Source: Ornithodoros turicata (lineage: Eukaryota > Arthropoda > Arachnida > Ixodida > Argasidae). Taken from it: 64,000 bases of DNA. A program made the position numbers and the translations under genes. Of the stretch, positions 3,617 through 26,077 are shown in pieces. The DNA lies in contig NW_026999298.1 in assembly GCF_037126465.1 (NCBI RefSeq), positions 1-64,000 on the forward strand. Direction: 5' to 3'. Below the pieces are notes generated by a model that ran no database searches, was not told the DNA's origin, and saw nothing but the letters and a program-made list of their open reading frames with translations. Every line of letters begins with the position of its first letter. Position 1 is the stretch's first letter.

Positions 3617-6537
3617 TCATATATCTCTTAGGTATCCAGTGTCCCTAAAAACCTTGTAAACTCTGCTAAAACTTACAAGCGGCTCATCGCCCAGCAAAAG
3701 GGCTCGGTGAAGAGGAATTCTATACCGGTAGAACTCAGAAAAATGAGTTTGGCGATGATGTTCCTGGAGAGGGCAGCTGATGAGAATGTGAAGAATAGAC
3801 AACTGCTCAGCACAGTGCACACACTGAGGTGGGTCCCTCTGGAGAATTAAAAATCCATGTGTGAGAAATGTGTTGGCGATACGCAAACGAGACATGACTA
3901 CTTCATAGAGCCTCTCTTTGAAAACTCCTGCGGATAACTTCGTACTTTTAGGGCATATGTGGAGGCAAGGTAAAATCTCCGCCTTTCTAATGACCACTCG
4001 TTGCACTCCACATAGAGACTCTCGACCGGCGATGTGCGAAACGCTCCCAAGACCAGTCGCAGTCCCTGGTGGTGGACAGGGTCTAGAGCTTTCAAGACGG
4101 ACTTTCGTGCAGAGCCGTACACGACAGATCCATAGTCAAGCTTGGAACGGATGCAAGATCTGTAGATGCGGCGCAGAACCTCACGGTCTGCACCCCAGGA
4201 TCGATGTGACAAGATTTTGAGAATGTTCAGAGATTTCCCACATTCACTTTCTAGGTTGCTTATGTGAGGGTTGAAAGTGAGCTTGCGGTCAAAAAGTATA
4301 CCCAGGAATTTATGCTCAGATTTGACCGTAATATCTTGGCCATTCATTTTAAGTTCTGGCTCAGGAAACATACCCCTTACTCTTGAGAAGGGTACGCAAA
4401 CCGTTTCCTCAGGTGAGAAATTAAACCCATTCTCACATGACCATTTTGCTAATTTGTTTACACAGAGCTGGAGTTGTCTCTCACATCTTGAAATGCTTGT
4501 AGACGAATAAGATATCTGTACATCGTCAACGTATAGTGAGTACATGACGGATGGCGGAATAGCGTGAACAATAGAGTTAATTTTGACTATGAAGAGTGTG
4601 ACACTCAGAACAGAACCCTGTGGTACACCGTTCTCCTGAATAAAAGAACGTGAGAGTGATGTGCCCAACTGGACTCTAAAAGTTCTGTCCTGTAGAAAAT
4701 TTGCGATGCAGCGCGACCGCGTACACCGAAATTGTACAAGTCACGAACGATACCATATCGCCATGCCGTTTCGTGTGCTTTTTTTAGATCGAAAAATATG
4801 GATATACAATGCTGTTTTCTGACAAACGCCTCCCTGATGACAGTTTTCAGCCGCAACAGATGATGCGTGGTTGAGTGGACGGCTCTAAATCCGCACTGAT
4901 ACCTGTCGAGACATCCATTTTCTTCGAGGAAGTACATCAGGCGGCAGTTAACCATGCGCTCGAAGGTTTTGCCTAAACAACTTGTAAGGGCTATAGGCCA
5001 GTAGCTACATGCATTGGAAGGATCTTTCCCTGGCTTCAAAAGTGGAACGACTGTAGCCACCTTCCAACGAGATGGGAGTTCACCCTGATTCCAAGCTGAA
5101 TTGAAAAAGTGCAGGATAACTTCTAGTGATGTTTTTGATAAGTGCTGCAACATGCTGTACGTGATTCGATCTGGCCCAGGTGCTGTTTGTCTTGGAGACG
5201 ACAGAGCACGCAGCAGCTCCATCATACAAAATGGTTTATTAAAAGCATGGCTGTCACTTGTGCCATATGTGATTTTGAATATCTCAGCATTATCTTTGAC
5301 TTTTAAGAAATCCCTGGTGTAGTGAGAGGAGGAAGAAACACTCTGGAAGTGTTCTCCCAACACATCTGCCTGTTCTTCCAAACTTTGGCACACCGCACCA
5401 TTCCTCTCCAAAAGGGGAATAGAGAAGCTTGTGTAATTGCCCTTTATTTATTTTTTTTGTCGATCCCACACAACCTTAGTTGGGGTACTGCTATTCAAGG
5501 AGGAGACAAAACGCTTCCATGATTCGCTCTTTGCTTGTCGGCGTGTCCACCTAGCTTTTGCTCGAGCTCTCTTAAACGCCAGTAGATTTGCTGGGGTTGG
5601 ATACCGCCGGAACCTGCCCCAAGCACGGTTCTGCTCTTTTCGTGTATTTCCACAGTCCTCCGACCACCAGGGCTTGCAACGTCTGGGCAGTTGACCCGAT
5701 GACTGTGGAATGGACTTGGTTGCTGCTTTTACAAGAACGTCTCTGACATAGTTATTTGCATCATTAATGTTCAGCCCAAGGAGGGACTCTATAGAAAGTG
5801 TGGCTTCTTGTTTAAAGAGGTTCCAGTCTGCTAACTGTGTCTTCCAACGAGGTGGGCGGGTTTTAATTGCACCTGATGGTCGATTGATCTCTAAAACGAC
5901 AGGGAAGTGATCGCTACCATAGGGGTTTTCGTCCACTGTCCATGAAATGTCCTGAAATACAGATGGACTGCACAGCGAAATATCAATGGCTGAAAAGGAC
6001 TGCGAAGCAGCATTAACATGAGTAGCGTTTCCTGCATTGAGCATGCAGGTTGGCAAGGATGCTAATAATTTCTCAAACATTTTACCTCGGGTGTCAACTT
6101 TGGAACAACCCCAGAGCAAATGATGCGCATTGAAATCTCCCAGTACTAGAAAAGGCGATGGGAGTTGATTAATAAGATCCTCAAGCTGGTCTCTGTTCGA
6201 CCCTGACTGATGGCGGTAGGTATAAAGAGCATACCGTCACTACACGGTCAGTGCAGATCTGTACAGCAATGGCCTCAAGATTTGTGGAAAGTGGAACGTC
6301 TCTCGTGGGAAGTGTTCTAGCCGTGAGAATGGCCACACCTCCGGAAGCACGTGCCGTGTTCGTTCGGTCCTTACGATAAACGTTCCACCGTCGGAGGTGG
6401 AAAGGGGTGTCTGAAATCAAATTTGTTTCTTGGAGACAGAAACAGACAGCATGATGTTTGTCTGCCAAATCATGGACGTCATCAAGATTTTTCAGCAAAC
6501 CCCGGTAGTTCCACTGAATAATGCTCTGGGAACTCAT
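3617..6537 (-). pseudogene. LINE ORF2: endonuclease plus reverse transcriptase, frameshifted
   Basis: Successive open pieces on the minus strand make one broken polyprotein. Piece 6537-6181 has the endonuclease start (IIQWNYRG, then CLQETNL with the catalytic Glu). Piece 6119-5448 has SAIDISLCSP and GSDHFPVVL (Asp-His). Piece 5411-4605 has RT blocks TAPGPDRITY, GFR and FFDLKKA with the first catalytic Asp. Piece 4668-3898 has NGVPQGSVL and the intact YVDD box. Piece 4006-3617 has a C-terminal Cys/His segment. The GDFNAHHLLWG motif lies across the break near 6120-6180. A usual Arg in the RT is Trp (SYWPIALTS), and no RNase H domain is visible between thumb and C-terminus, so it may be deleted near 3920. 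Not functional as it stands. Confidence 0.85.
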
Positions 6538-6676
6538 GAGAAATGTACAGAAGAGGAAAAAGAATATGGACTGAACCAGTACTCTAAGGTGTAAAGACCT
6601 TGTGGAACAACTGTCTATGAATGCGGAGGGATTAAGGAGCTTGTATTCTCGGTGGAGGAACCCTTTGTTGTTGTTC

Positions 6677-7846
6677 CTAAGCTTTTCCTCCTCGTCCTCG
6701 GCCAGCTTTTTTTGACCAGCTTGGTAGACTCGAAGACGACTTCTGAGAGCAGCAGTCGTCGTCATCGAGATCCATGCTCTGACTCGTGTTCTGAGACAGG
6801 CCCATGGCAATCCCGTCCCAAACGGAGGGGGATGCAACAACCTCCTTTGAGGTTAACATTGCATCTCCCTGGCTGTTCGTCTGAGAGGCCACTGGAGGAG
6901 AACCCTCAGTGCCCCTCTCTTTGTGTTGGGGAGTGTGGAGGGGAGCCCCAGAGGTCTGGGTCTCCACCGATACTCTGAGTGGTGCCACTCCCCTGCGCAC
7001 CACATCAGAGAAGGTTCCTTTTTTCTGGAACGCCAATTGTGCCTTTGCTGCACTGTATGTGATATTTTGCTCCGTTTTTAGCTTGAGGATCTGTTTCTCC
7101 TCCTTCCAACAAGGACATGATCTAGAGTAAACAGGGTGGTTACCCTTACAATTGGCACACTGAAAGTCATTGCTGCACGACTCTGACGAATGGTCTTTGC
7201 CGGTGCACTTAGCACAGACGGGCTGCCCACGGCATACCTGAGAACCGTGGTCAAACCGCTGGCACTTGTAACAGCGACTCGGATTTGGGATGTAAGCCCT
7301 CACATTGCAACTGTGGTAACCGGCTTTGATTGTGTCTGGCAGCTTGTGGAGCTTGAAAGAAAGGATGATGTGTTTTGTTGGGATTTCTTTCCCATCCCTA
7401 CGCATGACTATTCGCTTTATAGCTACCACACCGTGCTGTTGTAGGCCTTCTTGGAGTTCCGATTCCGAACAGTCAAGAAGGTCGCTCTCAGAAATTACTC
7501 CTTTAACAATGTTGAGACTCCGGTGTGAACTTACTGTGACAGATATCCCATTGATGTTTGTCAGTGAAAGAAGCGCACTGCTTTGCTCTCGCTTTTCAAC
7601 ATGGACCTGGATATCTCCAGAGCCCAGTTTCTTGGCATTGTATTCTTTACCTATCAGCTGTTCAACTGCTTTCGCTATTACAAAAGGAGATACCTTTGAC
7701 AGTGGTCTTATGTCATCATTAGAGTGGACAACCAGAAACTTTGCAAACCATGGCTCGGGTGTTGAGGTATTTAAATCAATTTGCTGGTACTCGGTGCGGA
7801 ACCGTTTCCGATTCCGATCTCGGGGTTTTAAAGAAGAGGAAGCCAT
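6677..7846 (-). CDS. LINE ORF1: gag-like nucleic-acid-binding protein with three CCHC knuckles
   Basis: An open frame of 389 codons starts at the ATG at 7844-7846. I chose this ATG over the upstream one at 7912 because the basic MASSSLKPRDRNRKR start looks like a genuine gag N-terminus and the upstream part is leader-like. The middle third looks like an RNA-recognition-type fold. Three Cys/His knuckles follow at about residues 210-265: C-x2-C-x4-H-x4-C twice, then a C-x2-C-x3-H-x5-C variant. The C-terminus is Ser/Asp rich and ends in a Gly/Arg/Lys tail. In this family ORF1 binds element RNA in the ribonucleoprotein. The frame is intact, in contrast with ORF2 downstream. Confidence 0.8.
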   Translation of the reverse strand: MASSSLKPRDRNRKRFRTEYQQIDLNTSTPEPWFAKFLVVHSNDDIRPLSKVSPFVIAKAVEQLIGKEYNAKKLGSGDIQVHVEKREQSSALLSLTNINGISVTVSSHRSLNIVKGVISESDLLDCSESELQEGLQQHGVVAIKRIVMRRDGKEIPTKHIILSFKLHKLPDTIKAGYHSCNVRAYIPNPSRCYKCQRFDHGSQVCRGQPVCAKCTGKDHSSESCSNDFQCANCKGNHPVYSRSCPCWKEEKQILKLKTEQNITYSAAKAQLAFQKKGTFSDVVRRGVAPLRVSVETQTSGAPLHTPQHKERGTEGSPPVASQTNSQGDAMLTSKEVVASPSVWDGIAMGLSQNTSQSMDLDDDDCCSQKSSSSLPSWSKKAGRGRGGKA

Positions 7847-8340
7847 AAAGGTGACAATACAATTCGATGCAAGGGTCCTGCCGCCCACCACGGAGCCCAA
7901 CCAGGGGACCACGTTTGACGCAGTAGCAGGTACGCCTACACTATACCCAAGTGCAGCTTCTGGAGAGTGAAAGACTGCCCAAGGTTAACCCTTGCTGCCA
8001 AAGAAGGTGAAAAGAGGAAAAGGAGAGAAAGAAGGAGACCAAGGAAGAGAAAGTAATGAAAAGGGAGATGGCGACTAGCTGAATAATCCTGGCCGGGCCT
8101 TCCAGGACCACCCGACTATGGGAAGCAGGGGCCAAAACGGTGTATTGCTTTCCCGGAGGGGCCCGGAAGGGTCCGAAACAACCTCCGGGTCCACTCAACC
8201 GCCAGGATCCCCTTTTCCCCCGACACGGGAAAGCCACGCACAACTATACGTGGGGGTCTCCTTCCTGCAGCGACCCAACCGTTGGTGCAGGAGGGGGCTA
8301 CTGCGGCTGCTGTCGGGCGATGGGGGCGCCACATTTATAT

Positions 8341-11684: not shown

Positions 11685-13786
11685 ATGGTAAACTGCGCTA
11701 TTTACGGTTGTAACGAGAGAAGTTTCCGCAAGAAAAAGAGGAAAGAGAAGAGGGAGGCGAGTATTCACGTGAGATGTCGCTGGTAAACGAATACAGTCAA
11801 ACTCCTTTATAGCGAACACCTTTTTAACGAAAATACCACTACAGCAATTTTTTTTTGCAGTCCCGCTGGAGCCTATAGGTCCAATAATGGACATCCTTTT
11901 TAACGAAAATTCCTTTACTGCGAATTTTTTTTGCTGTCCCCTGAGCTTCGTTGTAAAGGAGTTTGACTGTATTTGCAAAATGACGACGACGAAAATGGAA
12001 GTGAGAAAGTCCGATTCTTTCGGCTGCCGGCAATCAACAAAAGGGACTGCGTAGAAACGATCATTTTGCAGAAGAGGAGGAGGGACGAGTGGCTCTCACG
12101 GATTAACCGAAAAGACATGCAAGCAAGTGCCACTCATCACAGAATTTGCAGCAAACACTTCATATCTGGTGAGCTGATGTTTTGATCTGGTATGCTTCAC
12201 ATTGCGTGCAAAAATATTCAGTGTTTACATCATATGAGCGGCAGCGACAGCTAGAGTTTAGAAGAACATAACTGAAAAGGCCAGTGTTATTTCAGGTGAA
12301 CCATCACTTCTGTACGATGTCAACATCCCGGACTGGGCACCAAGCGTCCAGCTTGGTCACGACAAGCCGACTGCACTGCAATTTAGACAGAAACCTGATA
12401 CTTGTTCATTGTGTCTGCCTTCAAGCATATCTCATACTGTGTCATTGCAATTTCATGTAGATACAGTAGGCGCAAGAATAGGGCAGCATGCCAGGCAGGA
12501 GTTGCAAGGCGCCTCACAGAACTCTAAAATGTGCCTGTGGCTGACAGTGCTGGTACATACACAGGAGCATCAGAGTGTGGACTCAGTTTAGGTAGGTAGT
12601 GGTATTCTTACAATTAAACTTACTAACATATTAAGTACTTTAATCCGGATAATTTGCAAAAGGAAATGCTTTTTGTGACTTAAATGATGTGAAATTTTGA
12701 TTTAGGCATTTCGGTGGATCACCCATCTGAAGATAATTATGATGAAGCGGGACAACTACAGGATGCGCTTTCACATGACAAGGCAATTGCATAGGGTAAG
12801 TTTCAAGTTGTGCGTGCCAATTCATTGCTAGATAACTGTCAGGACCTGTTCACGTTTCTGCAGATATCTCCATGGCTGATATTCTCCGACTTGATGAAGA
12901 AAACTGAAGGTTAAGCCACGAGGCCTACAAGCTGAAGGCACATATGGGCGCACGTGAAATGACACAAGCGTATTTTCAGAATGACTCTGCTGCAGTGAGG
13001 TTTTACGCTGGACTTCCCAACTATGCAATGTTGCTTGCAGTTTTCGATTTGGTTGAGAACGATGTCCACCATACATCTTGCAATTCTTTGACGACATTTC
13101 AGGAGATGATGTTAACTTTCGTTCGGCTTCGTTTAACGTTGCCTCTTCAAGATCTCGCTTACAGGTTTTCGGTGTCATTATCAACAACATCTCGAATAGT
13201 TGAGAAGTGGATAAATGCGATGTATGTCTGTCTAAAGGGTCTGATAACTTGGCCGTCACGAGAACGTTTGAGAGAGTCCATGCCCATGACTTTCCGAAGC
13301 ACGTTTGGCGTGCAAGTTGCTGTAATATTACACTGCTTCGAGATGTTTATCGATACACCATCGTCATATCTGGCAAGAGCGCTAACATGGTCTCATTATA
13401 AGCATCGCAATACTGTCATGTACCTGATGGGTCGGGCGGAAGGACAAGCGATAAAACAATCACAGAGTCATGTGGTGTATTGGACAATCTGTTGCCAGGA
13501 GATTCTGTTCTGGCAGATCGTGGTTTCACAATTGCGGACAGCGTTAACCTTCACCGTGCAAGGTTGGAAATTCCTGCGTTTACACGAGGGAGGGAAGGCA
13601 CAGCTGTCACCCTGGGAAGTGGAGTCAACGAGGAAATTGGCTAATGTTAGGATAGAACGAGTTATTGGGCTTGTGCGTTCCAAGTATTCTATTCTCAAAG
13701 GCATGGTACCCGTTGAAATGTTCACAAAGAAAAATGGAGATGATGTCCCCGTGCTAGACAAAATTGTGTACATCAGTTGTGCTTGA
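11685..13786 (+). pseudogene. THAP-domain / DDE transposase of an ISL2EU-like transposon, left-arm copy
   Basis: Exon 1 starts at 11685 (MVNCAIYGC, the first half of a C-x4-C THAP finger) and can end at 11782 or 11768. Exon 2 is 12002-12168, with FFRLPAI, DEWLSRI and the C-x2-H pair in RICSKHF, ending at a GTGAGC donor. Exon 3 begins after TTATTTCAG at 12296. A further exon lies at about 12704-12795. The catalytic exon runs from about 12865 to the stop at 13786. It has the family's [34 protein letters not shown] (Asp) and [11 protein letters not shown] blocks. It is broken: an in-frame TAG at about 12792 where the right arm has TCG, a TGA near 12904, His instead of the first catalytic Asp (ILHCFEMF), and a deletion near 13428 that shifts frame. 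It would have bound and cut transposon ends in the nucleus. Confidence 0.83.
11794..11969. mobile_element. 176-bp pogo/Tc1-type MITE inside a THAP intron
   Basis: The ends are inverted repeats of CAGTCAAACTCCTTTATAGC type, with the complement ending AGGAGTTTGACTG. Both sides are flanked by TA (11792-11793 and 11970-11971). An internal imperfect repeat, CTTTTTAACGAAAAT, occurs twice. There is no coding capacity. TA duplication and CAGTCAAAC termini fit non-autonomous Tc1/mariner-pogo elements. The right arm lacks it because a larger deletion removed the segment. Confidence 0.85.
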
Positions 13787-14004: not shown

Positions 14005-14018
14005 CTTGTACGGAAAAG
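14005..14018 (+). repeat. 14-bp target-site duplication, left copy
   Basis: The 14 bases CTTGTACGGAAAAG are repeated exactly at 23483-23496 on the other side of the PLE cluster. They occur once, uninterrupted and in reverse complement, at 37341-37354 in the right arm, which is therefore the empty site. Confidence 0.95.
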
Positions 14019-14505
14019 AGTTCCCTCAGGACAGAAGCCGCCGATATTTCGAACAGAGACTGTTCTTCTTCTGGGCACCGTCCTCATCATTGGCATGGTA
14101 TTTAAAGGGTTAGGTGTGACGTGTTTAAAGGTTCATGCGAATTGTGGGTCAACAGCCCGGAGGGAAGAAAGGTTCCGTACGGGTTTTTACGGGCGGAGTG
14201 AATGGCTGCTTTTTTAGAGTGTGGAGGGGATTATGTGAACGTTGTGATCTAGGCTACAGACCGGTTACAGAAAAATGGAAGGTTCACGAACACGTGGATG
14301 AAACGGGACAACAGTCAAGAATTGGCAAGCATAGCGAAAGATAAGGAGGTTAGTGGTTACGTGGGGAAAAATTCCAGAACCAGCAAAGGGTTTTTTTTTT
14401 TTAATATTTGTAATGCAAAGTTGTGGCATGCAATAAAGAAAGTAGAAAGCAGTGGCCATGCATAACATGACAGATGATAATGGAGGTAGAAGGGAAAAGC
14501 ATATT
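14019..14505 (-). repeat. PLE pseudo-LTR and 3' UTR of the minus-strand copy
   Basis: Reverse complement of the 3' region of the plus copy (22951-23450), including a T-run at 14390-14401 that corresponds to its A-run. The outer end is truncated about 40 bp earlier than the plus copy's right end. No coding potential is needed to explain it. Confidence 0.85.
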
Positions 14506-17214
14506 TTATTTGTGAAGTGTTTCTAGGGTGCCTTGTGATTTGTTGATACCGGACGGGTGAAGAGCGTTGAACTTGTATATGAGATAAGACTCCCTATCAC
14601 GTCTGTCACGTGTGGATCTAAACCCGGTTTCTAGAATATATAGTTTAATGTTGTCAAAATTGTGACCCGGAACGTTAAAGTGTTCGGCGACTGCTTTGGG
14701 GAGTTTGTTGGACGTGTCGGTTCTGTGTCCGGTAAGGCGGTTGTTCATTTGTTGGCCGGTTTCACCAATGTATTGCATAGAGCAGTCGCCGCATTCAATG
14801 CAGTATATGACATTGGAGCTTGTGCATGTGAATGCGTGGTTAACGGGGTGGGTGTAATTGCTCGCAGTGCTTTTGATGGAGTTAGCGTGTTGAACGTGCT
14901 TGCATGTTTTGCAGCGCGGGAGGTTGCAGGGTCGTGTTCCCGTGTACGGGGTGCTTGTTTTGCTGATTTTGGCATTGACCAAGGAGTCTGCCAGGTTTTT
15001 TGCACGTCGGTATGTCACCTGTATAGGATTTGTGAATATATTGCTAAGTCGGTCACTGCTTTGGAGGAGGGGCTCGTGCTTCTGTAGAATGGCTTTGATG
15101 TTTGGAAGTGCGTTGGAATATCTTGTGATGAAGCTTATTTGGCACGCGTCAGGATTTTTTCGGTTTTCCAGAACCTCGTCTCGATCGAGTATAAGTGCCT
15201 TGCGACGGAATTCGGTTAGGAGGGAGTCTGGATAGTCCCTTTGGGCAAGTGTACTGCAGAGTTCGTCAAGCTTCTCAGCGTAATCTGTGTCGTTTGAACA
15301 AATTCTGCGTAGTCTTACACTCTGCCCATTAGGAATTCCAACCTTACAGTGACGCGGGTGGTGACTCTTGAAGTGAAGGTATTGTTGTTTGTCAGTTGGC
15401 TTTTTGTACAGGGTTGTGATGAGGTTGCCGTTGTCTAGTGATATTGTGGTGTCGAGGAAGTTAATTAAGTGAGTTGACTGTTGTGATGTGAACTTTATGT
15501 TGCTATGCGCGGTGTTCAGTAGATCTATGAACTTTTGAAATTCATGTTCCCCGTGTTCCCATATTATCAGTATATCATCGATGTATCGAAGGTACACCGT
15601 GGGTTTCAATGAGAGGGCGCTGAGAACTTTGTTTTCTAAGAACCCCATGAAAATATTTGCGTATGTGGGTGCAACAGGTGTGCCCATACTTGTACCGTGT
15701 ACTTGTAGGTAGTGTTCGCCATTGAACTCGAAGTAGTTCAGTTTAAGGACCAAGTCCATTAGAGCGAGTATGGTTTCCGTGTCTTTTCTGGTGTTTGTTG
15801 TAGAAAGGGTATTGCAGAGGGCTGTGATTCCGTCGTTGTGTGGGATGTTAGTATACAGTGATGTCACATCCAGCGTGGCTAGTATTGTGTCCCTACCAAA
15901 TGTACGAGTGTTGTTTATATCTCTGATTATTCTGAGGAGGTGGGGTGTGTCTTGTACATGCGATGGCAGTGTTGTCGGAATATGGTTTAAATAGTGGTCC
16001 AGGAATTTCGAGAGTCTTTCTGTTGGTGTGTTGTTATTAGATACAATTGGCCTGCCGGGGATGTCAGCCGTATAGAGCTCGTTGGCGTGTACCTTGTGGA
16101 TTTTGGGCAGTAAATAGAAACGACCTGCGCCTGTGTTTGATGGGGTGAGATATCTGAGGTCATCACGTGTGATGAGCTTTCGTTCGTGGAGGTTTTGTAT
16201 GGTATGGGTTATTAGCGCCGTGTACTCCTTTGTTGGGTCATGGTCCAGTTTGAGGTAGTGTTGCGTATTGTTGAGTTGCCTCTGAGCTTCAGAAACATAT
16301 TTATCTGTGGGCCAGATGACGATACTCCCACCCTTATCTGCGGGCTTGATAATGATATCATCTCTGTCAGCTAGCGCTTTGATGATGTCACGCTGTGTTT
16401 TAGTGAGGTTGTGACCACGCGAGCTTTGGGAAATACCGCGAACGATGTCGTTGCTTACTTGTTTAATGTACAGGTCTAATGCGGGTTCTCGGCCGTGATT
16501 TGATGTCCAGGTTGATGGTAGTCGGAGGTCGTTGTTGTTTTCTTGTGTTGTATGAGCGAAGAATTCTCTAAGGCGTAGCCGTCTCGCAAAGTCTGATATG
16601 TCTTTGTGGATTTCGTATTCGTTAACAGAATTGAGTGTAGGGCAGAATGTTAACCCCCTAGAGAGGACTTGTAGTTCGTCGCTGGTTAGTGAGCGTGATA
16701 TATCTATCACGGTGCTTGCGTCAGCGTTTTCTCGGGGTGACTCAGCGATGTTGCGGAGAGTTGTGGTTGTGGTGCTGGAAATTATTTGTTCGGCTGCTGC
16801 GTGTGTCGTGTTAGTGGGTCCGGTATCCGTGTCGTTGTTGGAATTAGGTTTTCCGAGTTTTGAGTGTTCCTTGTTAGCTAGCTCGCGGTTGAGTTGTTGA
16901 ATGTGTAGTTCGAGAGTGTTTGCCTCCGCGTCGGTGAGACTGATATTGTTCATATGGGCCTGGATCGTAGCGAGTTGCGCGTGGCACTGTTTCTTTAATA
17001 TTTCTAGAAACGTACTGGCTGTGTTGTTAAGGGCTGATGCCCACTCTAGCTCTAGTTCAGGTGTCAGTTTTCCTAATGCAGGAACTGTTTTAGGGGTGAG
17101 GCCTTTAGGTACTGTGTTGTGAGCCAGGTGGTGGGTGTAGATCCGTAGATGATGTAGGTATCGGCTACGTTTCTCCATGAGTTTTCGCATTCGTAGAAAG
17201 TTCGTTGACTGCAT
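14506..17214 (-). CDS. PLE ORF2: reverse transcriptase with GIY-YIG endonuclease (minus-strand copy)
   Basis: Intact 902-codon frame, nearly identical to the plus-strand copy at 20242-22950. I see three substitutions (for example TSNHGRE versus TPNHGRE, DIVRG versus DILRG, ITALCN versus ITAVCN). It has the same RT blocks, YIDD catalytic box, Cys-rich linker and C-terminal GIY-YIG domain described for that copy. Its upstream partner ORF1 is broken by a nonsense mutation, so if a fused or co-expressed ORF1 product is needed, this copy would depend on the other one. Confidence 0.93.
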   Translation of the reverse strand: MQSTNFLRMRKLMEKRSRYLHHLRIYTHHLAHNTVPKGLTPKTVPALGKLTPELELEWASALNNTASTFLEILKKQCHAQLATIQAHMNNISLTDAEANTLELHIQQLNRELANKEHSKLGKPNSNNDTDTGPTNTTHAAAEQIISSTTTTTLRNIAESPRENADASTVIDISRSLTSDELQVLSRGLTFCPTLNSVNEYEIHKDISDFARRLRLREFFAHTTQENNNDLRLPSTWTSNHGREPALDLYIKQVSNDIVRGISQSSRGHNLTKTQRDIIKALADRDDIIIKPADKGGSIVIWPTDKYVSEAQRQLNNTQHYLKLDHDPTKEYTALITHTIQNLHERKLITRDDLRYLTPSNTGAGRFYLLPKIHKVHANELYTADIPGRPIVSNNNTPTERLSKFLDHYLNHIPTTLPSHVQDTPHLLRIIRDINNTRTFGRDTILATLDVTSLYTNIPHNDGITALCNTLSTTNTRKDTETILALMDLVLKLNYFEFNGEHYLQVHGTSMGTPVAPTYANIFMGFLENKVLSALSLKPTVYLRYIDDILIIWEHGEHEFQKFIDLLNTAHSNIKFTSQQSTHLINFLDTTISLDNGNLITTLYKKPTDKQQYLHFKSHHPRHCKVGIPNGQSVRLRRICSNDTDYAEKLDELCSTLAQRDYPDSLLTEFRRKALILDRDEVLENRKNPDACQISFITRYSNALPNIKAILQKHEPLLQSSDRLSNIFTNPIQVTYRRAKNLADSLVNAKISKTSTPYTGTRPCNLPRCKTCKHVQHANSIKSTASNYTHPVNHAFTCTSSNVIYCIECGDCSMQYIGETGQQMNNRLTGHRTDTSNKLPKAVAEHFNVPGHNFDNIKLYILETGFRSTRDRRDRESYLIYKFNALHPSGINKSQGTLETLHK

Positions 17215-17235
17215 GGTAGGCTGGTGATTAGATAG

Positions 17236-18279
17236 TCAACGGTGTTTTCTGCGTGATGTGCGCGTGCGTCGTGTCTGTGGGGTCGGTGGCTGTGGGGTCA
17301 GTGGCTGTGGAGACTCGCTGTGTTCCTCGATGTCATCTGTCTGTGTTTGCGTGCTTGTGGTTTTCCGTGTCACAGTTTGCGTGAACTTTGTGTGTGTGCG
17401 GGTTGTGTTCGGAGTGTTGTCGTTTGCCGCGTGTGTATGCGTGGGTGCAGTGGTCGCTGTGGTCCCCTTTGATGCCATCGTGTGTTCTGGCGTGTTTGCG
17501 GTGCTGGCACTTAAAGTGTAAGCTGGTTGATGATGTTGTGTTTGAGCGTTTGTCAGTGCAGGACGGCATCTATGAACCATTAGGTGTTTGATGTTGTGTG
17601 CCATAGCTCGTACGCCTGCGTGGTTTGGGTGGATGCCGTCCCGAGCGAGGTGTGCTTCAGCGTGGTATTCGAAAGCTGCGTGTGTGATAACCATAACGTT
17701 GGTGTGTACCTGACGCATGTGGATGAGGTGGTTGTTGACAGCGTGCGCCTTCCTGTCGAACTCATGTAGCCATGTGTCCTGGTATATGTGTGCTCGGTGT
17801 TTGTTCTGTCTTCAGGGAAGTATCGTTGTCAGTACTATTTCAGCGCCTGGTCTGTTGTTTGTGATGTAGGAAACTAGTGCTTCGAATTCCTGGATGACAT
17901 GTTGTGCTGTCGACCGTGCGATGTCGTTGGTCCCTACGTGGAGTATGAAGTGCGTGATGTTCGGTGGGGCGGCGGTTACATGTGTCATGATGTCTCGTAT
18001 TTTTGCGCCGCTTGAAAAGTGTATGTGAGGTCCGTGTTCTCCGTGTGGGATGTGTTCGTGTATGTACTTGTAACAGCTATCCCCGAGGAGTGCGACATGT
18101 GAGAAAGAGAGGACGGGTTGCTTACCTCCTGAGGCCATCGGATCGTCAGTAGCGAACGTAGATGGGTAGAAATCCAGCGAACCGGTAGAATGTAGGAAGG
18201 GAGTTGCCTCAGGACAGAAGCCGCCGATATTTCGAACAGAGACTGTTCTTCTTCTGGGCACCGTCCTCATCATTGGCAT
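17236..18279 (-). pseudogene. PLE ORF1: SGNH-hydrolase-like protein with one nonsense mutation (minus-strand copy)
   Basis: Same 347-codon frame as 19177-20220, but the codon after ILP (residue 155) is TGA where the plus copy has CGA, a C-to-T transition that splits it into 18279-17812 and a downstream remainder (an internal ATG gives 17718-17236). There is also a FEALVSYI versus FEARVSFI difference. Ser, Asn and the Asp-His motif are all still encoded, but on different sides of the stop. The ORF1 stop TGA-CTA context before ORF2 is preserved here too. Confidence 0.88.
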
Positions 18280-18399
18280 GGTATTTAAAGGGTTAGGTGT
18301 GACGTGTTTAAAGGTTCATGCGAATTGTGGGTCAACAGCCCGGAGGGAAGAAAGGTTCCGTACGGGTTTTTACGGGCGGAGTGAATGGCACAGTGAATG
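18280..18399 (-). repeat. 5' pseudo-LTR of the minus-strand PLE copy and inversion junction
   Basis: The pLTR sequence (GGGCGGAGTGAATGG at its inner edge) stops at 18389 and is followed by about 10 bases, CACAGTGAAT, before plus-strand PLE coding sequence begins at about 18400. This marks the head-to-head junction of inverted copies. The filler is almost a repeat of the adjacent GAGTGAATGG, suggesting a template switch. Confidence 0.8.
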
Positions 18400-18766
18400 A
18401 AGCACTGCGAGCAATTACACCCACCCCGTTAACCACGCATTCACATGCACAAGCTCCAATGTCATATACTGCATTGAATGCGGCGACTGCTCTATGCAAT
18501 ACATTGGTGAAACCGGCCAACAAATGAACAACCGCCTTACCGGACACAGAACCGACACGTCCAACAAACTCCCCAAAGCAGTCGCCGAACACTTTAACGT
18601 TCCGGGTCACAATTTTGACAACATTAAACTATATATTCTAGAAACCGGGTTTAGATCCACACGTGACAGACGTGATAGGGAGTCTTATCTCATATACAAG
18701 TTCAACGCTCTTCACCCGTCCGGTATCAACAAATCACAAGGCACCCTAGAAACACTTCACAAATAA
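18400..18766 (+). pseudogene. 5'-truncated PLE ORF2 fragment (GIY-YIG domain only)
   Basis: Matches the last part of the full PLE ORF2 from the codons for STASNY onward (frame set by AGC at 18401), through the YCIECGDC and YIGETGQQ blocks to the same C-terminus and stop, which overlaps an AATAAA. There is no RT domain or start. The truncation fits the usual 5' loss during target-primed reverse transcription of the upstream member of a PLE tandem. Confidence 0.92.
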
Positions 18767-19176
18767 AATATGCTTTTCCCTTCTACCTCCATTATCATCT
18801 GTCATGTTATGCATGGCCACTGCTTTCTACTTTCTTTATTGCATGCCACAACTTTGCATTACAAATATTAAAAAAAAAAAAACCCTTTGCTGGTTCTGGA
18901 ATTTTTCCCCACGTAACCACTAACCTCCTTATCTTTCGCTATGCTTGCCAATTCTTGCCTGTTGTCCCGTTTCATCCACGTGTTCGTGAACCTTCCATTT
19001 TTCTGTAACCGGTCTGTAGCCTAGATCACTACGTTCACATAATCCCCTCCACACTCTAACAAAGCAGCCATTCACTCCGCCCGTAAAAACCCGTACGGAA
19101 CCTTTCTTCCCTCCGGGCTGTTGACCCACAATTCGCATGAACCTTTAAACACGTCACACCTAACCCTTTAAATACC
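18767..19176 (+). repeat. PLE pseudo-LTR (internal copy, serves as 5' region of the full element)
   Basis: Near-identical to 22951-23360 at a 4184-bp offset. It includes an AATAAA overlapping the upstream stop codon, an A-run at 18870-18882 and the conserved block just before the ORF1 start (CCTTTAAATACC). It is expected to carry the element's promoter, but no TATA or initiator could be assigned with confidence. Confidence 0.8.
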
Positions 19177-20220
19177 ATGCCAATGATGAGGACGGTGCCC
19201 AGAAGAAGAACAGTCTCTGTTCGAAATATCGGCGGCTTCTGTCCTGAGGCAACTCCCTTCCTACATTCTACCGGTTCGCTGGATTTCTACCCATCTACGT
19301 TCGCTACTGACGATCCGATGGCCTCAGGAGGTAAGCAACCCGTCCTCTCTTTCTCACATGTCGCACTCCTCGGGGATAGCTGTTACAAGTACATACACGA
19401 ACACATCCCACACGGAGAACACGGACCTCACATACACTTTTCAAGCGGCGCAAAAATACGAGACATCATGACACATGTAACCGCCGCCCCACCGAACATC
19501 ACGCACTTCATACTCCACGTAGGGACCAACGACATCGCACGGTCGACAGCACAACATGTCATCCAGGAATTCGAAGCACGAGTTTCCTTCATCACAAACA
19601 ACAGACCAGGCGCTGAAATAGTACTGACAACGATACTTCCCCGAAGACAAAACAAACACCGAGCACACATATACCAGGACACATGGCTACATGAGTTCGA
19701 CAGGAAGGCGCACGATGTCAACAACCACCTCATCCACATGCGTCAGGTACACACCAACGTTATGGTTATCACACACGCAGCTTTCGAATACCACGCTGAA
19801 GCACACCTCGCTCGGGACGGCATCCACCCAAACCACGCAGGCGTACGAGCTATGGCACACAACATCAAACACCTAATGGTTCATAGATGCCGTCCTGCAC
19901 TGACAAACGCTCAAACACAACATCATCAACCAGCTTACACTTTAAGTGCCAGCACCGCAAACACGCCAGAACACACGATGGCATCAAAGGGGACCACAGC
20001 GACCACTGCACCCACGCATACACACGCGGCAAACGACAACACTCCGAACACAACCCGCACACACACAAAGTTCACGCAAACTGTGACACGGAAAACCACA
20101 AGCACGCAAACACAGACAGATGACATCGAGGAACACAGCGAGTCTCCACAGCCACTGACCCCACAGCCACCGACCCCACAGACACGACGCACGCGCACAT
20201 CACGCAGAAAACACCGTTGA
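19177..20220 (+). CDS. PLE ORF1: SGNH/GDSL-type hydrolase-like protein
   Basis: Intact 347-codon frame. After a basic N-terminus it has the blocks of an SGNH esterase: block I VALLGDSC with the nucleophile Ser at about residue 68, block III HVGTNDI with Asn at about 118, and block V DGIHPN with Asp about 214 and His about 217, followed by a helical NHAGVRAMAHNI segment. The last 110 residues are low complexity, rich in Thr/His/Pro and basic residues. SGNH esterase domains are known in ORF1 of CR1-like LINEs and in rotifer Terminons; finding one in a compact GIY-YIG-bearing PLE is unusual as far as I know. The role may be RNP or membrane related (inference). The frame is the same as ORF2, 21 bases downstream, with only one stop between. 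Confidence 0.88.
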   Translation: MPMMRTVPRRRTVSVRNIGGFCPEATPFLHSTGSLDFYPSTFATDDPMASGGKQPVLSFSHVALLGDSCYKYIHEHIPHGEHGPHIHFSSGAKIRDIMTHVTAAPPNITHFILHVGTNDIARSTAQHVIQEFEARVSFITNNRPGAEIVLTTILPRRQNKHRAHIYQDTWLHEFDRKAHDVNNHLIHMRQVHTNVMVITHAAFEYHAEAHLARDGIHPNHAGVRAMAHNIKHLMVHRCRPALTNAQTQHHQPAYTLSASTANTPEHTMASKGTTATTAPTHTHAANDNTPNTTRTHTKFTQTVTRKTTSTQTQTDDIEEHSESPQPLTPQPPTPQTRRTRTSRRKHR

Positions 20221-20241
20221 CTATCTAATCACCAGCCTACC
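20218..20241 (+). promoter_or_regulatory. Candidate stop-codon readthrough context (UGA-CUA) between PLE ORF1 and ORF2
   Basis: ORF1 ends in TGA followed directly by CTA. The seven codons after the stop are open and lead in frame into the ATG of ORF2 at 20242. UGA followed by CUA is the best established leaky stop context in animals and alphaviruses. The same arrangement is kept in the minus-strand copy (17215-17238). Confidence 0.5.
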
Positions 20242-22950
20242 ATGCAGTCAACGAACTTTCTACGAATGCGAAAACTCATGGAGAAACGTAGCCGATACCT
20301 ACATCATCTACGGATCTACACCCACCACCTGGCTCACAACACAGTACCTAAAGGCCTCACCCCTAAAACAGTTCCTGCATTAGGAAAACTGACACCTGAA
20401 CTAGAGCTAGAGTGGGCATCAGCCCTTAACAACACAGCCAGTACGTTTCTAGAAATATTAAAGAAACAGTGCCACGCGCAACTCGCTACGATCCAGGCCC
20501 ATATGAACAATATCAGTCTCACCGACGCGGAGGCAAACACTCTCGAACTACACATTCAACAACTCAACCGCGAGCTAGCTAACAAGGAACACTCAAAACT
20601 CGGAAAACCTAATTCCAACAACGACACGGATACCGGACCCACTAACACGACACACGCAGCAGCCGAACAAATAATTTCCAGCACCACAACCACAACTCTC
20701 CGCAACATCGCTGAGTCACCCCGAGAAAACGCTGACGCAAGCACCGTAATAGATATATCACGCTCACTAACCAGCGACGAACTACAAGTCCTCTCTAGGG
20801 GGTTAACATTCTGCCCTACACTCAATTCTGTTAACGAATACGAAATCCACAAAGACATATCAGACTTTGCGAGACGGCTACGCCTTAGAGAATTCTTCGC
20901 TCATACAACACAAGAAAACAACAACGACCTCCGACTACCATCAACCTGGACACCAAATCACGGCCGAGAACCCGCATTAGACCTGTACATTAAACAAGTA
21001 AGCAACGACATCCTTCGCGGTATTTCCCAAAGCTCGCGTGGTCACAACCTCACTAAAACACAGCGTGACATCATCAAAGCGCTAGCTGACAGAGATGATA
21101 TCATTATCAAGCCCGCAGATAAGGGTGGGAGTATCGTCATCTGGCCCACAGATAAATATGTTTCTGAAGCTCAGAGGCAACTCAACAATACGCAACACTA
21201 CCTCAAACTGGACCATGACCCAACAAAGGAGTACACGGCGCTAATAACCCATACCATACAAAACCTCCACGAACGAAAGCTCATCACACGTGATGACCTC
21301 AGATATCTCACCCCATCAAACACAGGCGCAGGTCGTTTCTATTTACTGCCCAAAATCCACAAGGTACACGCCAACGAGCTCTATACGGCTGACATCCCCG
21401 GCAGGCCAATTGTATCTAATAACAACACACCAACAGAAAGACTCTCGAAATTCCTGGACCACTATTTAAACCATATTCCGACAACACTGCCATCGCATGT
21501 ACAAGACACACCCCACCTCCTCAGAATAATCAGAGATATAAACAACACTCGTACATTTGGTAGGGACACAATACTAGCCACGCTGGATGTGACATCACTG
21601 TATACTAACATCCCACACAACGACGGAATCACAGCCGTCTGCAATACCCTTTCTACAACAAACACCAGAAAAGACACGGAAACCATACTCGCTCTAATGG
21701 ACTTGGTCCTTAAACTGAACTACTTCGAGTTCAATGGCGAACACTACCTACAAGTACACGGTACAAGTATGGGCACACCTGTTGCACCCACATACGCAAA
21801 TATTTTCATGGGGTTCTTAGAAAACAAAGTTCTCAGCGCCCTCTCATTGAAACCCACGGTGTACCTTCGATACATCGATGATATACTGATAATATGGGAA
21901 CACGGGGAACATGAATTTCAAAAGTTCATAGATCTACTGAACACCGCGCATAGCAACATAAAGTTCACATCACAACAGTCAACTCACTTAATTAACTTCC
22001 TCGACACCACAATATCACTAGACAACGGCAACCTCATCACAACCCTGTACAAAAAGCCAACTGACAAACAACAATACCTTCACTTCAAGAGTCACCACCC
22101 GCGTCACTGTAAGGTTGGAATTCCTAATGGGCAGAGTGTAAGACTACGCAGAATTTGTTCAAACGACACAGATTACGCTGAGAAGCTTGACGAACTCTGC
22201 AGTACACTTGCCCAAAGGGACTATCCAGACTCCCTCCTAACCGAATTCCGTCGCAAGGCACTTATACTCGATCGAGACGAGGTTCTGGAAAACCGAAAAA
22301 ATCCTGACGCGTGCCAAATAAGCTTCATCACAAGATATTCCAACGCACTTCCAAACATCAAAGCCATTCTACAGAAGCACGAGCCCCTCCTCCAAAGCAG
22401 TGACCGACTTAGCAATATATTCACAAATCCTATACAGGTGACATACCGACGTGCAAAAAACCTGGCAGACTCCTTGGTCAATGCCAAAATCAGCAAAACA
22501 AGCACCCCGTACACGGGAACACGACCCTGCAACCTCCCGCGCTGCAAAACATGCAAGCACGTTCAACACGCTAACTCCATCAAAAGCACTGCGAGCAATT
22601 ACACCCACCCCGTTAACCACGCATTCACATGCACAAGCTCCAATGTCATATACTGCATTGAATGCGGCGACTGCTCTATGCAATACATTGGTGAAACCGG
22701 CCAACAAATGAACAACCGCCTTACCGGACACAGAACCGACACGTCCAACAAACTCCCCAAAGCAGTCGCCGAACACTTTAACGTTCCGGGTCACAATTTT
22801 GACAACATTAAACTATATATTCTAGAAACCGGGTTTAGATCCACACGTGACAGACGTGATAGGGAGTCTTATCTCATATACAAGTTCAACGCTCTTCACC
22901 CGTCCGGTATCAACAAATCACAAGGCACCCTAGAAACACTTCACAAATAA
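20242..22950 (+). CDS. PLE ORF2: reverse transcriptase with Cys-rich linker and GIY-YIG endonuclease
   Basis: Intact 902-codon frame that copies element RNA at a nicked target. It has an N-terminal extension with a coiled-coil-like region (about 85-125), then RT blocks: KPADKGGSIVIWP (about 290), FYLLPKIHK (366), GRPIVS, LDVTSLYTNIPH (448), GTSMGTPVAPTYANIFMG (about 510) and the catalytic YIDD (544). A Cys cluster, CNLPRCKTC, starts at about 763. The GIY-YIG nuclease has IYC at about 803, YIGETGQQ at 815, the RLTGHR arginine and the RESYLIYKFNALHP glutamate region. Length and domain order match canonical GIY-YIG Penelope-like elements. The stop overlaps AATAAA. It probably could still be active. 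Confidence 0.95.
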   Translation: MQSTNFLRMRKLMEKRSRYLHHLRIYTHHLAHNTVPKGLTPKTVPALGKLTPELELEWASALNNTASTFLEILKKQCHAQLATIQAHMNNISLTDAEANTLELHIQQLNRELANKEHSKLGKPNSNNDTDTGPTNTTHAAAEQIISSTTTTTLRNIAESPRENADASTVIDISRSLTSDELQVLSRGLTFCPTLNSVNEYEIHKDISDFARRLRLREFFAHTTQENNNDLRLPSTWTPNHGREPALDLYIKQVSNDILRGISQSSRGHNLTKTQRDIIKALADRDDIIIKPADKGGSIVIWPTDKYVSEAQRQLNNTQHYLKLDHDPTKEYTALITHTIQNLHERKLITRDDLRYLTPSNTGAGRFYLLPKIHKVHANELYTADIPGRPIVSNNNTPTERLSKFLDHYLNHIPTTLPSHVQDTPHLLRIIRDINNTRTFGRDTILATLDVTSLYTNIPHNDGITAVCNTLSTTNTRKDTETILALMDLVLKLNYFEFNGEHYLQVHGTSMGTPVAPTYANIFMGFLENKVLSALSLKPTVYLRYIDDILIIWEHGEHEFQKFIDLLNTAHSNIKFTSQQSTHLINFLDTTISLDNGNLITTLYKKPTDKQQYLHFKSHHPRHCKVGIPNGQSVRLRRICSNDTDYAEKLDELCSTLAQRDYPDSLLTEFRRKALILDRDEVLENRKNPDACQISFITRYSNALPNIKAILQKHEPLLQSSDRLSNIFTNPIQVTYRRAKNLADSLVNAKISKTSTPYTGTRPCNLPRCKTCKHVQHANSIKSTASNYTHPVNHAFTCTSSNVIYCIECGDCSMQYIGETGQQMNNRLTGHRTDTSNKLPKAVAEHFNVPGHNFDNIKLYILETGFRSTRDRRDRESYLIYKFNALHPSGINKSQGTLETLHK

Positions 22951-23482
22951 AATATGCTTTTCCCTTCTACCTCCATTATCATCTGTCATGTTATGCATGG
23001 CCACTGCTTTCTACTTTCTTTATTGCATGCCACAACTTTGCATTACAAATATTAAAAAAAAAAAAATACTTTGCTGGTTCTGGAATTTTTCCCCACGTAA
23101 CCACTAACCTCCTTATCATTCGCTATGCTTGCCAATTCTTGCCTGTTGTCCCGTTTCATCCACGTGCTCGTGAACCTTCCATTTTTCTGTAACCGGTCTG
23201 TAGCCTAGATCACTACGTTCACATAATCCCCTCCACACTCTAACAAAGCAGCCATTCACTCCGCCCGTAAAAACCCGTACGGAACCTTTCTTGCCTCCGG
23301 GCTGTTGACCCACAATTCGCATGAACCTTTAAACACGTCACACCTAACCCTTTAAATACCATGCCAATGATGAGGACGGCGCCCAGAAGAAGAACAGTCT
23401 CTGTTCGAAATATCGGCGGCTTCTGTCCTGAGGCAACTCCCTTCCTACATTCTACCGGTTCGCTGGATTTCTACCCATCTAC
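22951..23482 (+). repeat. PLE 3' pseudo-LTR
   Basis: Direct repeat of 18767-19298. It contains the first 40 codons of a second ORF1 copy (from 23361), truncated by the element end at 23482, where the 14-bp target duplication begins. A-run at 23054-23066. Confidence 0.88.
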
Positions 23483-23496
23483 CTTGTACGGAAAAG
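23483..23496 (+). repeat. 14-bp target-site duplication, right copy
   Basis: Exact repeat of 14005-14018; see that entry. It defines the right edge of the PLE cluster. Confidence 0.95.
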
Positions 23497-23534: not shown

Positions 23535-23702
23535 TCAGCTCAAGCTTTTGCAGTCTCTACAAAACCAAACTTTTGCACGAAGTACTCTCTTCAGATTTTC
23601 GCATGCGAAGTGGAACCATTTTTTTCTTACACAATTTGTTATCGCACTCTATCATTTTACCATATTCGTCACCACCACAGTGGCAAAATTTCTGGGTGCT
23701 TT
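23535..23702 (-). pseudogene. PHD-finger exon of the convergent ISL2EU-like gene, left-arm copy (frameshifted)
   Basis: Reverse complement of the intact right-arm exon at 37136-37302. A run of seven T at 23609-23615, against six A in the right arm, puts a one-base frameshift in the middle of the PHD finger. The CHCGGDE start and the CRDCKSLS end are both still readable. See the right-arm entry for the domain. Confidence 0.78.
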
Positions 23703-23896
23703 CTGCAGGTGCAGCGTCACTTTCAGTACCGGTTACTGCAACTCTTGTGCCGACATGTCATCCTGCCGGAGACGAGGATCCGCAACGACCCAGGCCGGCG
23801 AGAAGTCGGTTGCCAGTGGGAAGGAAAACAAGCGAAGATGCTGTATCTGTCTCACCGAGTACTTCACGAACCGAGCTTCTTACTGACCTCGGCTCC

Positions 23897-24670
23897 ATGA
23901 GCGCGGCATTTCACGAGCAGGACGATATTCACCAGCGTGTGGAGGTTCAGTCTTCTGACCTAACTCCAGTGGATGACTGCAAAGTGCCTCAGGATGGGTT
24001 TCAAATAGTACGGTATAAGAAGAGCCGTGCCGACGGCATCGCGGTTGTTTTTCGCTGTGAGAACCCTCTGGCCTCTTTCTGGGATGTGGACCCTAACTTC
24101 GTCGCGCGCAACATCCTGTCGACAACACAAGAGACGGCGCTCCGTCACCGCATCAGTAAACAGGGTACCCTCATTGTGCATGTGTCATCTGAAGAATCTG
24201 CGCGCCGTCTCGTGGCCCTCCGGTCACTTGCTGGAGTCGACGTTCTCCCATACATTTCCCAATCATACCTTCGCACCACGGGCAGAATAGTTGGTGGTCC
24301 ACGCCAGTACAGCGATGCACAGCTCCTCGGTTTCTTCCGCGCCAGCGGCGTTATTGAGGTGAAGAGAGAGGTGACCTATTCCCGCGAGAGCGACGGCTCG
24401 GCCAACGTTGCCGTTAAGTCAAGTGTTCTTCTCACTTTTGAGCCTGGCCGCGTGCTCCCTGCCAAGCTACAACTTGGCTTCGCTTACTATCCAGTCTCGG
24501 AGTATATTGACCCCCGGTTCAGTGCTTTAACTGCCAGAAATACGGCCATTATGCCAGGAATTGCCGAGGCTCCCAGCGATGTAAAGTGTGTTCGGGACCG
24601 CATGATTTCAAACAATGTCTCACCTGACGAGAGCCGATGTGCGCCGACTGGGGTGGACAGCATACTGTGA
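23897..24670 (+). pseudogene. Gag-like ORF1 of the second LINE, left-arm copy
   Basis: The frame from the ATG at 23897 (MSAAFHEQDD) runs about 200 residues of RNA-binding-like sequence (FQIVRYKK, RNILSTTQET, SSEESARRLVALRSL, LRTTGRIVGGPRQYSD). A frameshift near 24510 then garbles the zinc-knuckle region. The right arm still reads CFNCQKYGHYARNY and CKVCSGPHDFKQC at the equivalent place. The frame extends upstream to 23573, but that part is antisense to the PHD exon and is unlikely to belong to the LINE. Confidence 0.75.
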
Positions 24671-25096
24671 CTTACCGTGCTTGTAGAGTTGCCAAGGCCG
24701 CAGTCGCTGCGAACCGACGACGTGTCCTGAGTGCAGCAACCTTACCTTCGCGGCGTCCTCCCCCTGGAGAAGCCCACTTCCCACGGCTTCCGTGTAGCGC
24801 CGAGCAGCCGACGCACCGTCCCCCGAGACCGTTAAAGACCTTTGCATCTGCTGTCAAGACTCAAGAGCCAGCTGGAAAACCGGCGCCTCAAGACAGCCTC
24901 CCGCGATCGCCTAAGGCGTCCCAAGCTCGACCGGAGAAAGAGGATCACGCATTTGGCGCAATAACCGCTATGATGTTCACTGCACTGCGCGCCATTGTCC
25001 AATAAATTCCTGCTTCGGGAGATCTACCGGCTGTTCAAGCAGTACTAGCACTTGAGCCTCTTCTGCGTCAGCGTCATCTTCCCTCTCCACCTGTGA
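24671..25096 (+). other. Remainder of LINE ORF1 and inter-ORF region, left arm
   Basis: GC-rich sequence encoding, in shifted frames, the Pro/Ser/Arg-rich C-terminus of the gag-like protein, then about 90 bp to the endonuclease ATG at 25097. Equivalent to 34904-35390 in the right arm. Confidence 0.6.
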
Positions 25097-26077
25097 ATGG
25101 CTAATCACACGCCACTTCCTCCAACAGCCCCTTATCGCCGCACGACTATTTTTCAATGGAATGCTCGAAGTCTCCAGTTGATGACGCCTGATTTTCGCCA
25201 GTTCGCATGGCGGCACAAATTCCCCTTGCTCTGCGTCTCCGAATGCGGTATCACAGAATATTTTCGGTTCTCGAATTACCTTACCTTCCTTTCTGAACCC
25301 CGAGGACGAACATGTCGTGTCGCGCTTTTCGTCCGGTCTGACATCCCCGTAGTCCGCCGGACAGTGCGCACGCAGGGGACTGGTGACTACGTGGCCTGCT
25401 CCGTTCGTCTAGGCTCCCTTGACCTCACGGTTGCCTCTCTTTACTTGCCCCCTGGTGTTCCCTACGACATTGCTGAATTGGACACACTTACTGCCGGCCT
25501 CCCATCGCCGCTTGTGCTTTGTGGCGATTTCAACGCGCATAATGCCGTCTGGGGTAGCCCACGTACCGACGCAAGAGGACAGCGCCTTGCGGACCTCTTC
25601 GCCGACAGAGCTCTAAGTGTATTAAACGACGGTTCCCCAACATTTCTTCAAGCCACATACCTCTCCTCGTGTCTTGATCTTACCGCTGTGTCCACATCAG
25701 TGGCTCGTCTTTTCACATGGAGAGTAGATGCCGACACCCTTGGAAGCGATCATTTGCCCGTTCTTATCGGCATCCGACGATCGCGTCAGCCGGCTATATC
25801 ACGTTCCGTCAAGCGAACCAACTGGCACCTCTATCAGGCCACACTGGAGTCAGCTTCGTCAAACGATGCACTGGGAAACCAGCAGGATTTTGCTGGTACT
25901 GTAGCAGGTGCTGCGCAGGCTGCTACTAACTGCTCCCGTGTCCCGGTGTGCTTCTCTGCCGTCGATGCTAAGTACGAGCGGCTTCGTGCTCTTCGTCGTC
26001 GCGCGGAACGCCGTGCCCGACGCACTGGTCAAGCTCCTGACCGCCTCGAAGCCCGGCGGCGTATTTACAAACCCTGA
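25097..26077 (+). CDS. AP-endonuclease domain of second LINE ORF2, left-arm copy (3' truncated)
   Basis: The 326-codon frame begins with IFQWNARSL (metal-binding Asn), then LLCVSECGI (catalytic Glu), SLYLPPGVPY, LVLCGDFNAHNAVWGS (Asp, Asn), SCLDLTAVS and LGSDHLPVLIG (Asp-His), so the exonuclease-endonuclease-phosphatase core is complete. It ends in an Arg-rich segment just where RT would begin; the last residues (IYKP) come from a 30-base insertion absent from the right arm. It would nick target DNA for reverse transcription, but without RT it cannot work alone. Confidence 0.82.
   Translation: MANHTPLPPTAPYRRTTIFQWNARSLQLMTPDFRQFAWRHKFPLLCVSECGITEYFRFSNYLTFLSEPRGRTCRVALFVRSDIPVVRRTVRTQGTGDYVACSVRLGSLDLTVASLYLPPGVPYDIAELDTLTAGLPSPLVLCGDFNAHNAVWGSPRTDARGQRLADLFADRALSVLNDGSPTFLQATYLSSCLDLTAVSTSVARLFTWRVDADTLGSDHLPVLIGIRRSRQPAISRSVKRTNWHLYQATLESASSNDALGNQQDFAGTVAGAAQAATNCSRVPVCFSAVDAKYERLRALRRRAERRARRTGQAPDRLEARRRIYKP

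Follow-up and report, generated by a model that had tools for sequence, protein, structure and literature searches.

The analysed stretch of Ornithodoros turicata DNA (contig NW_026999298.1, positions 1 to 64,000; 64,000 nt, called the window) carries one compound insertion at 14019-23482 with a 14-bp direct repeat on both flanks, as found by blastn self-comparison of the window. The insertion consists of an inverted element copy, a 5'-truncated tandem piece and, as third part, a full plus-strand copy (Table 1). The inverted copy and the plus copy are 99.5% identical (14007-18389 versus 23449-19067), and the left and right direct repeats are 99.3% identical. According to the spacing of these repeats, the element unit is 4184 bp long (about 4.2 kb). 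In tblastn within the window, the truncated piece encodes ORF2 residues 782-902. Direct and inverted pLTR repeats together with a target-site duplication (TSD) are the arrangement of Penelope elements in the text available of PMC3846280, and the same arrangement is found here. No matches of the ORF1 and ORF2 proteins were found outside the pieces of the insertion by tblastn against the window at E<=1e-3.

Table 1. Features of the compound insertion in the window.
Feature	Position	Strand	Basis or remark
Left 14-bp target-site duplication CTTGTACGGAAAAG	14005..14018	.	identical to 23483-23496
Inverted element copy, 3' end outward	14019..18389	-	blastn self-comparison; inverted repeat I1
Intact ORF2 of inverted copy, 902 aa	14506..17214	-	3 aa differences from plus copy
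ORF1 of inverted copy, broken by one nonsense codon	17236..18279	-	split over two listed ORFs
5'-truncated tandem piece upstream (ORF2 end, UTRs, ORF1 start), left pLTR-like direct repeat	18400..19298	+	
ORF1, 347 aa	19177..20220	+	open reading frame list
Hammerhead-like fold overlapping ORF1 start	19187..19250	+	stems fit, core altered
SGNH/GDSL hydrolase domain, residues ~56-240 (S68, G91, N118, D214, H217)	19342..19896	+	Pfam, AF2, Foldseek, VIA-align
Low-complexity basic tail, residues 241-347	19897..20217	+	low pLDDT, pI 10.5
ORF1 stop, context TGA-CTA	20218..20223	+	frame open on into ORF2
ORF2, 902 aa, reverse transcriptase and GIY-YIG endonuclease	20242..22950	+	Pfam
Cys-rich linker into GIY-YIG start (Neptune-type feature)	22528..22692	+	pattern match, ORF2 residue 763
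Right pLTR-like direct repeat (ORF2 end, UTRs, first ORF1 codons)	22584..23482	+	
Right 14-bp target-site duplication CTTGTACGGAAAAG	23483..23496	.	identical to 14005-14018

An earlier note, made from the sequence alone, had described an open frame of 347 codons on the plus strand directly upstream of a full RT/GIY-YIG frame in a Penelope-like element (PLE). Both frames are confirmed, the second with 902 aa, and the repeats and the TSD confirm the position of ORF1 inside the mobile unit. The same note regarded ORF1 as a regular part of the element, as it is present in two copies. A second copy does exist, but the minus-strand ORF1 differs from the plus-strand ORF1 by 5 nt, one of which makes a nonsense codon, so the insertion holds one intact ORF1 and not two; both also lie in one insertion and are weak evidence of regularity. 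It is very improbable that ORF1 is a host esterase gene, carried along in one insertion without any function for the element. Host DNA can be enclosed between the pLTRs of PLEs (PMC3846280, text available), but ORF1 and ORF2 share a frame and are separated by 21 bp, codons 1-42 of ORF1 are repeated inside the pLTR-like repeat that ends the insertion on the right, and metagenome contigs encode ORF1 homologues of the same layout, esterase then tail.

ORF2 matches Pfam RVT_1 (E 1.1e-11) and GIY-YIG (E 1.4e-4; 22.5 bits, 0.1 bit below the cut-off of 22.6), and none of the PDB sequences at E<=1. A PLE-type RT is thus joined to GIY-YIG and, judged by its coding sequence, the element is an EN+ Penelope-like element. 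According to the Cys-rich linker, ORF2 is marked as Neptune-like. The RT search with ORF2 residues 230-730 gave at least 2046 hits at E<=1e-10 among 7993 scored candidates. A recognisable EN motif was present in 97 of the best 120 RT homologues, and 95 of these 97 have the Cys-rich linker. In a tree of 33 rows (29 of the best 120 hits, the window and loci L001-L003 described below; database sequences without named Neptune references), the window RT and P0002 (74% identical) form a pair (support 100/99), with P0004 and P0005 next to them (96/91), followed by P0048 and P0013 (100/99). The sister group of all these consists of Ixodes and Ornithodoros PLEs (P0014, P0021, P0024, P0053; 95/90), which are the closest named RT relatives. 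Neither genus name appears on any of the 30 ORF1 hits, though the majority of these hits come without an organism name.

ORF1 matches Pfam Lipase_GDSL_2 with E 3.6e-7 and 31.3 bits, just below the curated cut-off of 32.9, which its homologue P0001 clears with 37.7 bits. Its best PDB sequence match is 4c1b, the ZfL2-1 ORF1 esterase (E 5.9e-7). The AF2 model has pLDDT >90 across most of the domain, and its best structural matches in Foldseek and VIA-align are acetylesterases and PAF acetylhydrolase. All these lines agree with the SGNH/GDSL domain proposed in the earlier note, and the blocks lie where they had been placed: GDS with Ser68, GTND with Asn118, and DGIH with Asp214 and His217. Gly91 of block II, which had not been named there, is also present, so that the fold together with blocks I, II, III, and V places ORF1 in the SGNH superfamily. 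Conservation was read from an alignment of 29 rows, the window protein and 28 of 30 homologues (P0145 and P0146 left out). The N118 column has Asn in all 29 rows, H217 has His in 28 and one gap, S68 has Ser in 27 and two gaps (the Ser of P0127 being read as mere alignment placement), G91 has Gly in 27, and D214 has Asp in 24.

The first ORF1 search found one homologue among 1577 candidates, and the ORF1 alignment search found 30 at E<=0.01 among 3554 candidates. The closest are P0001, P0123-P0125 (JGI), and P0122, followed by Rhipicephalus sanguineus P0126 and Haemaphysalis longicornis P0127, so that, for ORF1 as for the RT, the nearest relatives with a name include tick sequences. P0126 and P0127 are SGNH proteins from tick genomes, and P0126 lacks the block II Gly. 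The remaining 23 have E values of 1.4e-7 or weaker, and several of them, by our own reading, appear to have N-terminal coiled-coil-like or Cys-rich segments as in LINE ORF1p. The tail, measured as the residues beyond block V plus 25, is 106 in the window ORF1 and 73-155 in P0001 and P0122-P0126; the short P0127 has 45. It is 0-26 in 19 of the 23 proteins P0128-P0150 and 208 in P0146; P0131, P0145, and P0149 have no block V match. The comparison of 30 ORF1 homologues at E<=0.01 with at least 2046 RT matches at E<=1e-10 means that many RT relatives may lack ORF1, or that theirs diverge too fast. Scans of viral contigs with the ORF1 and ORF2 proteins, and with an alignment for each, found no relatives.

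In an esterase tree of 26 rows, the window ORF1 is grouped with P0001 and P0122-P0127 at 99/98, apart from 4c1b. Six long rows of 32 (P0129, P0132, P0133, P0136, P0137, P0144) are omitted from this tree; with them kept, the window group has 93/94, and the window ORF1 with five metagenomic rows has 87/78. The ORF1 homologues of the window group may likewise precede a PLE RT. The best PDB match being a LINE ORF1 esterase, ORF1 could belong to a different, CR1/L2-like LINE lying upstream by chance, but this is hardly credible. ORF1 occurs in both element copies within the TSD-bounded insertion, and its esterase group stands apart from 4c1b, although the AU test is compatible with a joint clade with L2 (p-AU 0.324). 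The LINE ORF1 esterases (ZfL2-1, CR1, L2, RTEX) share with the window ORF1 an SGNH domain in Gag position upstream of the RT, but differ in element class, domain order, and tree group. The window esterase (56-240) precedes a tail of 107 residues, and the AF2 model has no helix of at least four residues before residue 96 (DSSP). By DSSP on the model and by domain order, ORF1 thus does not have the order of coiled coil, then esterase, described for CR1/L2-type LINE ORF1p in PMC3905857.

Genome contigs were scanned with the RT alignment only, which gave four loci, L001-L004, in records labelled as bacterial; because they carry PLEs, these records appear to include eukaryotic contamination. The PLE of L001 (Bathymodiolus symbiont record) has the Cys-rich linker. 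The contig ends of L001 overlap by 77 bp, which indicates a collapsed tandem, and no SGNH ORF was found in the approximately 590 bp between the tandem units. In L002 (Epulopiscium record) and L003 (Enterovibrio record), a compact PLE with RT and GIY-YIG is immediately preceded by an SGNH-type ORF1, as in the window. They differ from the window element in that the SGNH-like domain is at the C-terminal end of ORF1 (tail measure 0 in both), ORF2 is in the -1 frame, and ORF2 is without the full Cys-rich pattern, so these elements need not be Neptune-like. The Pfam SGNH signal is weak, with no hit for L002 and 0.0043 for L003. Profile comparison with the window ORF1 family gave 97.6% probability, and the domain model of L002 (pLDDT 76.5, two-row alignment) matches SGNH enzymes at 4e-7. 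The window and L002/L003 esterases may have been captured by PLEs separately or only once: the branch length is 3.4, but one clade of them is not rejected by the AU test (p 0.352).

The earlier note suggested that a compact GIY-YIG PLE with an esterase ORF1 may be undescribed. This does not hold, as such ORF1s in PLEs are reported in PMC3905857 (2013) and PMC5408684 (2017), and L002 and L003 are further cases. According to the text available of PMC3905857, esterase ORF1ps occur 'even in Penelope-like elements' (RepBase). The clades given there are CR1, RTEX, and Penelope, and the phyla are chordates, cnidarians, and sponges. Those Penelope esterases, like the window ORF1, are SGNH esterases with a conserved active site in a PLE, but that text names no arthropod and describes esterase ORF1ps generally with coiled coils preceding the esterase, in contrast to the basic tail last in the window. 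Canonical Neptune-like PLEs of fish and molluscs with esterases are mentioned in the available part of PMC5408684. Both they and the window element are canonical GIY-YIG PLEs with an esterase, compared here by that mention, which comes without layout or sequence. In the available text of the 2019 review PMC6431247, compact PLEs have either one ORF for RT and EN together or two ORFs and no EN, and the text of PMC5718144 gives GDSL esterases for rotifer LTR elements only. Terminons (Athena PLEs of bdelloid rotifers) also combine a PLE-class RT with GDSL ORFs (PMC5408684 and PMC6431247, as far as available). They are up to 40 kb, telomere-associated, and EN-deficient, unlike the window unit, which is compact, has GIY-YIG in ORF2, and is TSD-flanked, and so is not a Terminon. 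No description of the layout with the esterase first and a basic disordered tail last, nor of a PLE with ORF1 and ORF2 in one frame split by UGA-CUA, was found in the literature covered, mostly main texts of open papers. The kind of element, a PLE with an esterase ORF1, has therefore been known since 2013, and the window element is a well-preserved further example with a layout not found described.

Two further readings concern what the domain does. It is rather doubtful that the main task of the esterase is enzymatic, directed at a lipid or an acetylated substrate of the host (such as to release RNPs or to counter a host barrier), and not Gag-like RNA packaging. Conservation of the catalytic blocks in the window protein and most of the aligned homologues agrees with such an enzyme, as do the acetylesterases and PAF acetylhydrolase among the structural matches, but the long basic tail kept in P0001, P0123-P0125, and P0126 suggests nucleic-acid binding as well. 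Slightly more doubtful still is a catalytically idle binding fold, like Oskar or the insect PAF-AH homologues in the text available of PMC3905857. Weak Pfam OSK similarity of ORF1 (E 0.0083) and the missing block II Gly of the tick homologue P0126 point that way. Against it, the window ORF1 has the full set of Ser, Gly, Asn, Asp, and His, and the L002 and L003 domains retain GDS and a block V Asp/His.

ORF1 and ORF2 of the window element form one frame of 1257 codons, in which the sole internal stop is a UGA with CUA behind it; both copies agree in this. The basic C-termini of P0001 and P0123-P0125 resemble the window ORF1 tail, which speaks against a recent lesion as the origin of the ORF1 stop. 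TGA is followed by CTA in 23 of 2390 cases in the window on both strands. According to the available text of PMC4207609, CUA after UGA is sufficient for efficient readthrough. From the stop onward, at 20218-20290, the RNA shows ordinary folding (z -0.19); at 20224-20320, z is -2.3. The junction is one evolutionary sample, noticed after the fact, and ideas of recoding drawn from it are suggestive only.

In L002, ORF1 and ORF2 overlap by 85 nt, with ORF2 in the -1 frame. A UUUAAAC heptamer is present at 3119 and 8560, in ORF1 phase and 12 nt before the ORF1 stop in both tandem copies. An in-phase slippery heptamer was found in the overlap in 7.6% of codon shuffles, a second in-phase heptamer of L002 ORF1 is at 1859, far from the overlap, and the TTTAAAC totals are 2 in L002 and 3 in L003. 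The downstream stem in L002 has -22.4 kcal/mol (z -1.3). No heptamer was found in the overlap of L003, where an ATG overlaps the ORF1 stop. The arrangements in the window element, L002, and L003 may point to a coupling of translation like that of Gag-Pol systems. As a speculative extension, some PLEs might use an SGNH esterase as the Gag-position protein and express it in Gag-Pol manner by recoding, with UGA-CUA readthrough in the window element and a -1 frameshift at UUUAAAC in L002. If true, these PLEs would be a further retroelement class with a Gag-Pol-like system, on an enzyme-based, lipid-binding Gag.

A hammerhead-like fold overlaps the ORF1 start, with stem II GAACAG/CUGUUC followed by GAAAUAUC. 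Hammerhead ribozymes occur in the pLTRs of many PLEs. The hammerhead core motif is CUGANGA, and the core is CAGAAGA in all four copies of the fold (at 19187-19250 and at 14.1, 18.2, and 23.4 kb). The fold at 19187-19250 has z -1.73, with 11 of 200 shuffles folding equally well, and the Rfam scan gave three matches up to E 5, with hammerhead absent. It is possibly a decayed or divergent ribozyme.

Other mobile elements were recognized in the window. Directly to the right of the insertion, at 23573-26077 (+), there is a LINE-like unit in which one ORF has no Pfam match and another (25097-26077) encodes an Exo_endo_phos_2 endonuclease. Further LINE debris, made up of fragmented endonuclease and RT sequences and of an Exo_endo_phos_2 ORF, is at 3898-7912 (-) and 33911-34903 (-), and a DDE transposase ORF (DDE_Tnp_4 with HTH_Tnp_4) at 12944-13786 (+).

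Taken from domain content and layout, the ORF1 protein is most likely Gag-like, membrane- and RNA-binding, and with esterase activity, probably made in small part as a readthrough fusion with ORF2; we hold this with fair confidence. The element would be a Neptune-like Penelope element of two genes, in which ORF1 encodes an SGNH esterase that ends in a basic, disordered tail and ORF2 an RT with a GIY-YIG nuclease. In PMC3905857, as far as its text is available, the ZfL2-1 esterase is active and binds liposomes, but its esterase domain does not bind oligo-(A) RNA, so RNA binding here would be the task of the tail alone, which presumably binds the RNA of the element. The esterase domain would bind, and maybe hydrolyse, phospholipid and hold the RNP at membranes, the role suggested for ZfL2-1 ORF1p. 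As only one UGA-CUA interrupts the frame that both ORFs share, readthrough by a minor fraction of ribosomes is probable and would give an ORF1-ORF2 fusion; alternatively, reinitiation may occur at the ORF2 AUG 21 nt downstream. ORF2 would then cut the target and reverse-transcribe. An intact esterase ORF1 in Gag position, in one frame with the RT, is a concrete case for membrane-binding esterases in the RNP assembly of PLEs, as has been proposed for LINEs, and the element also bears on how two proteins arise from one RNA.
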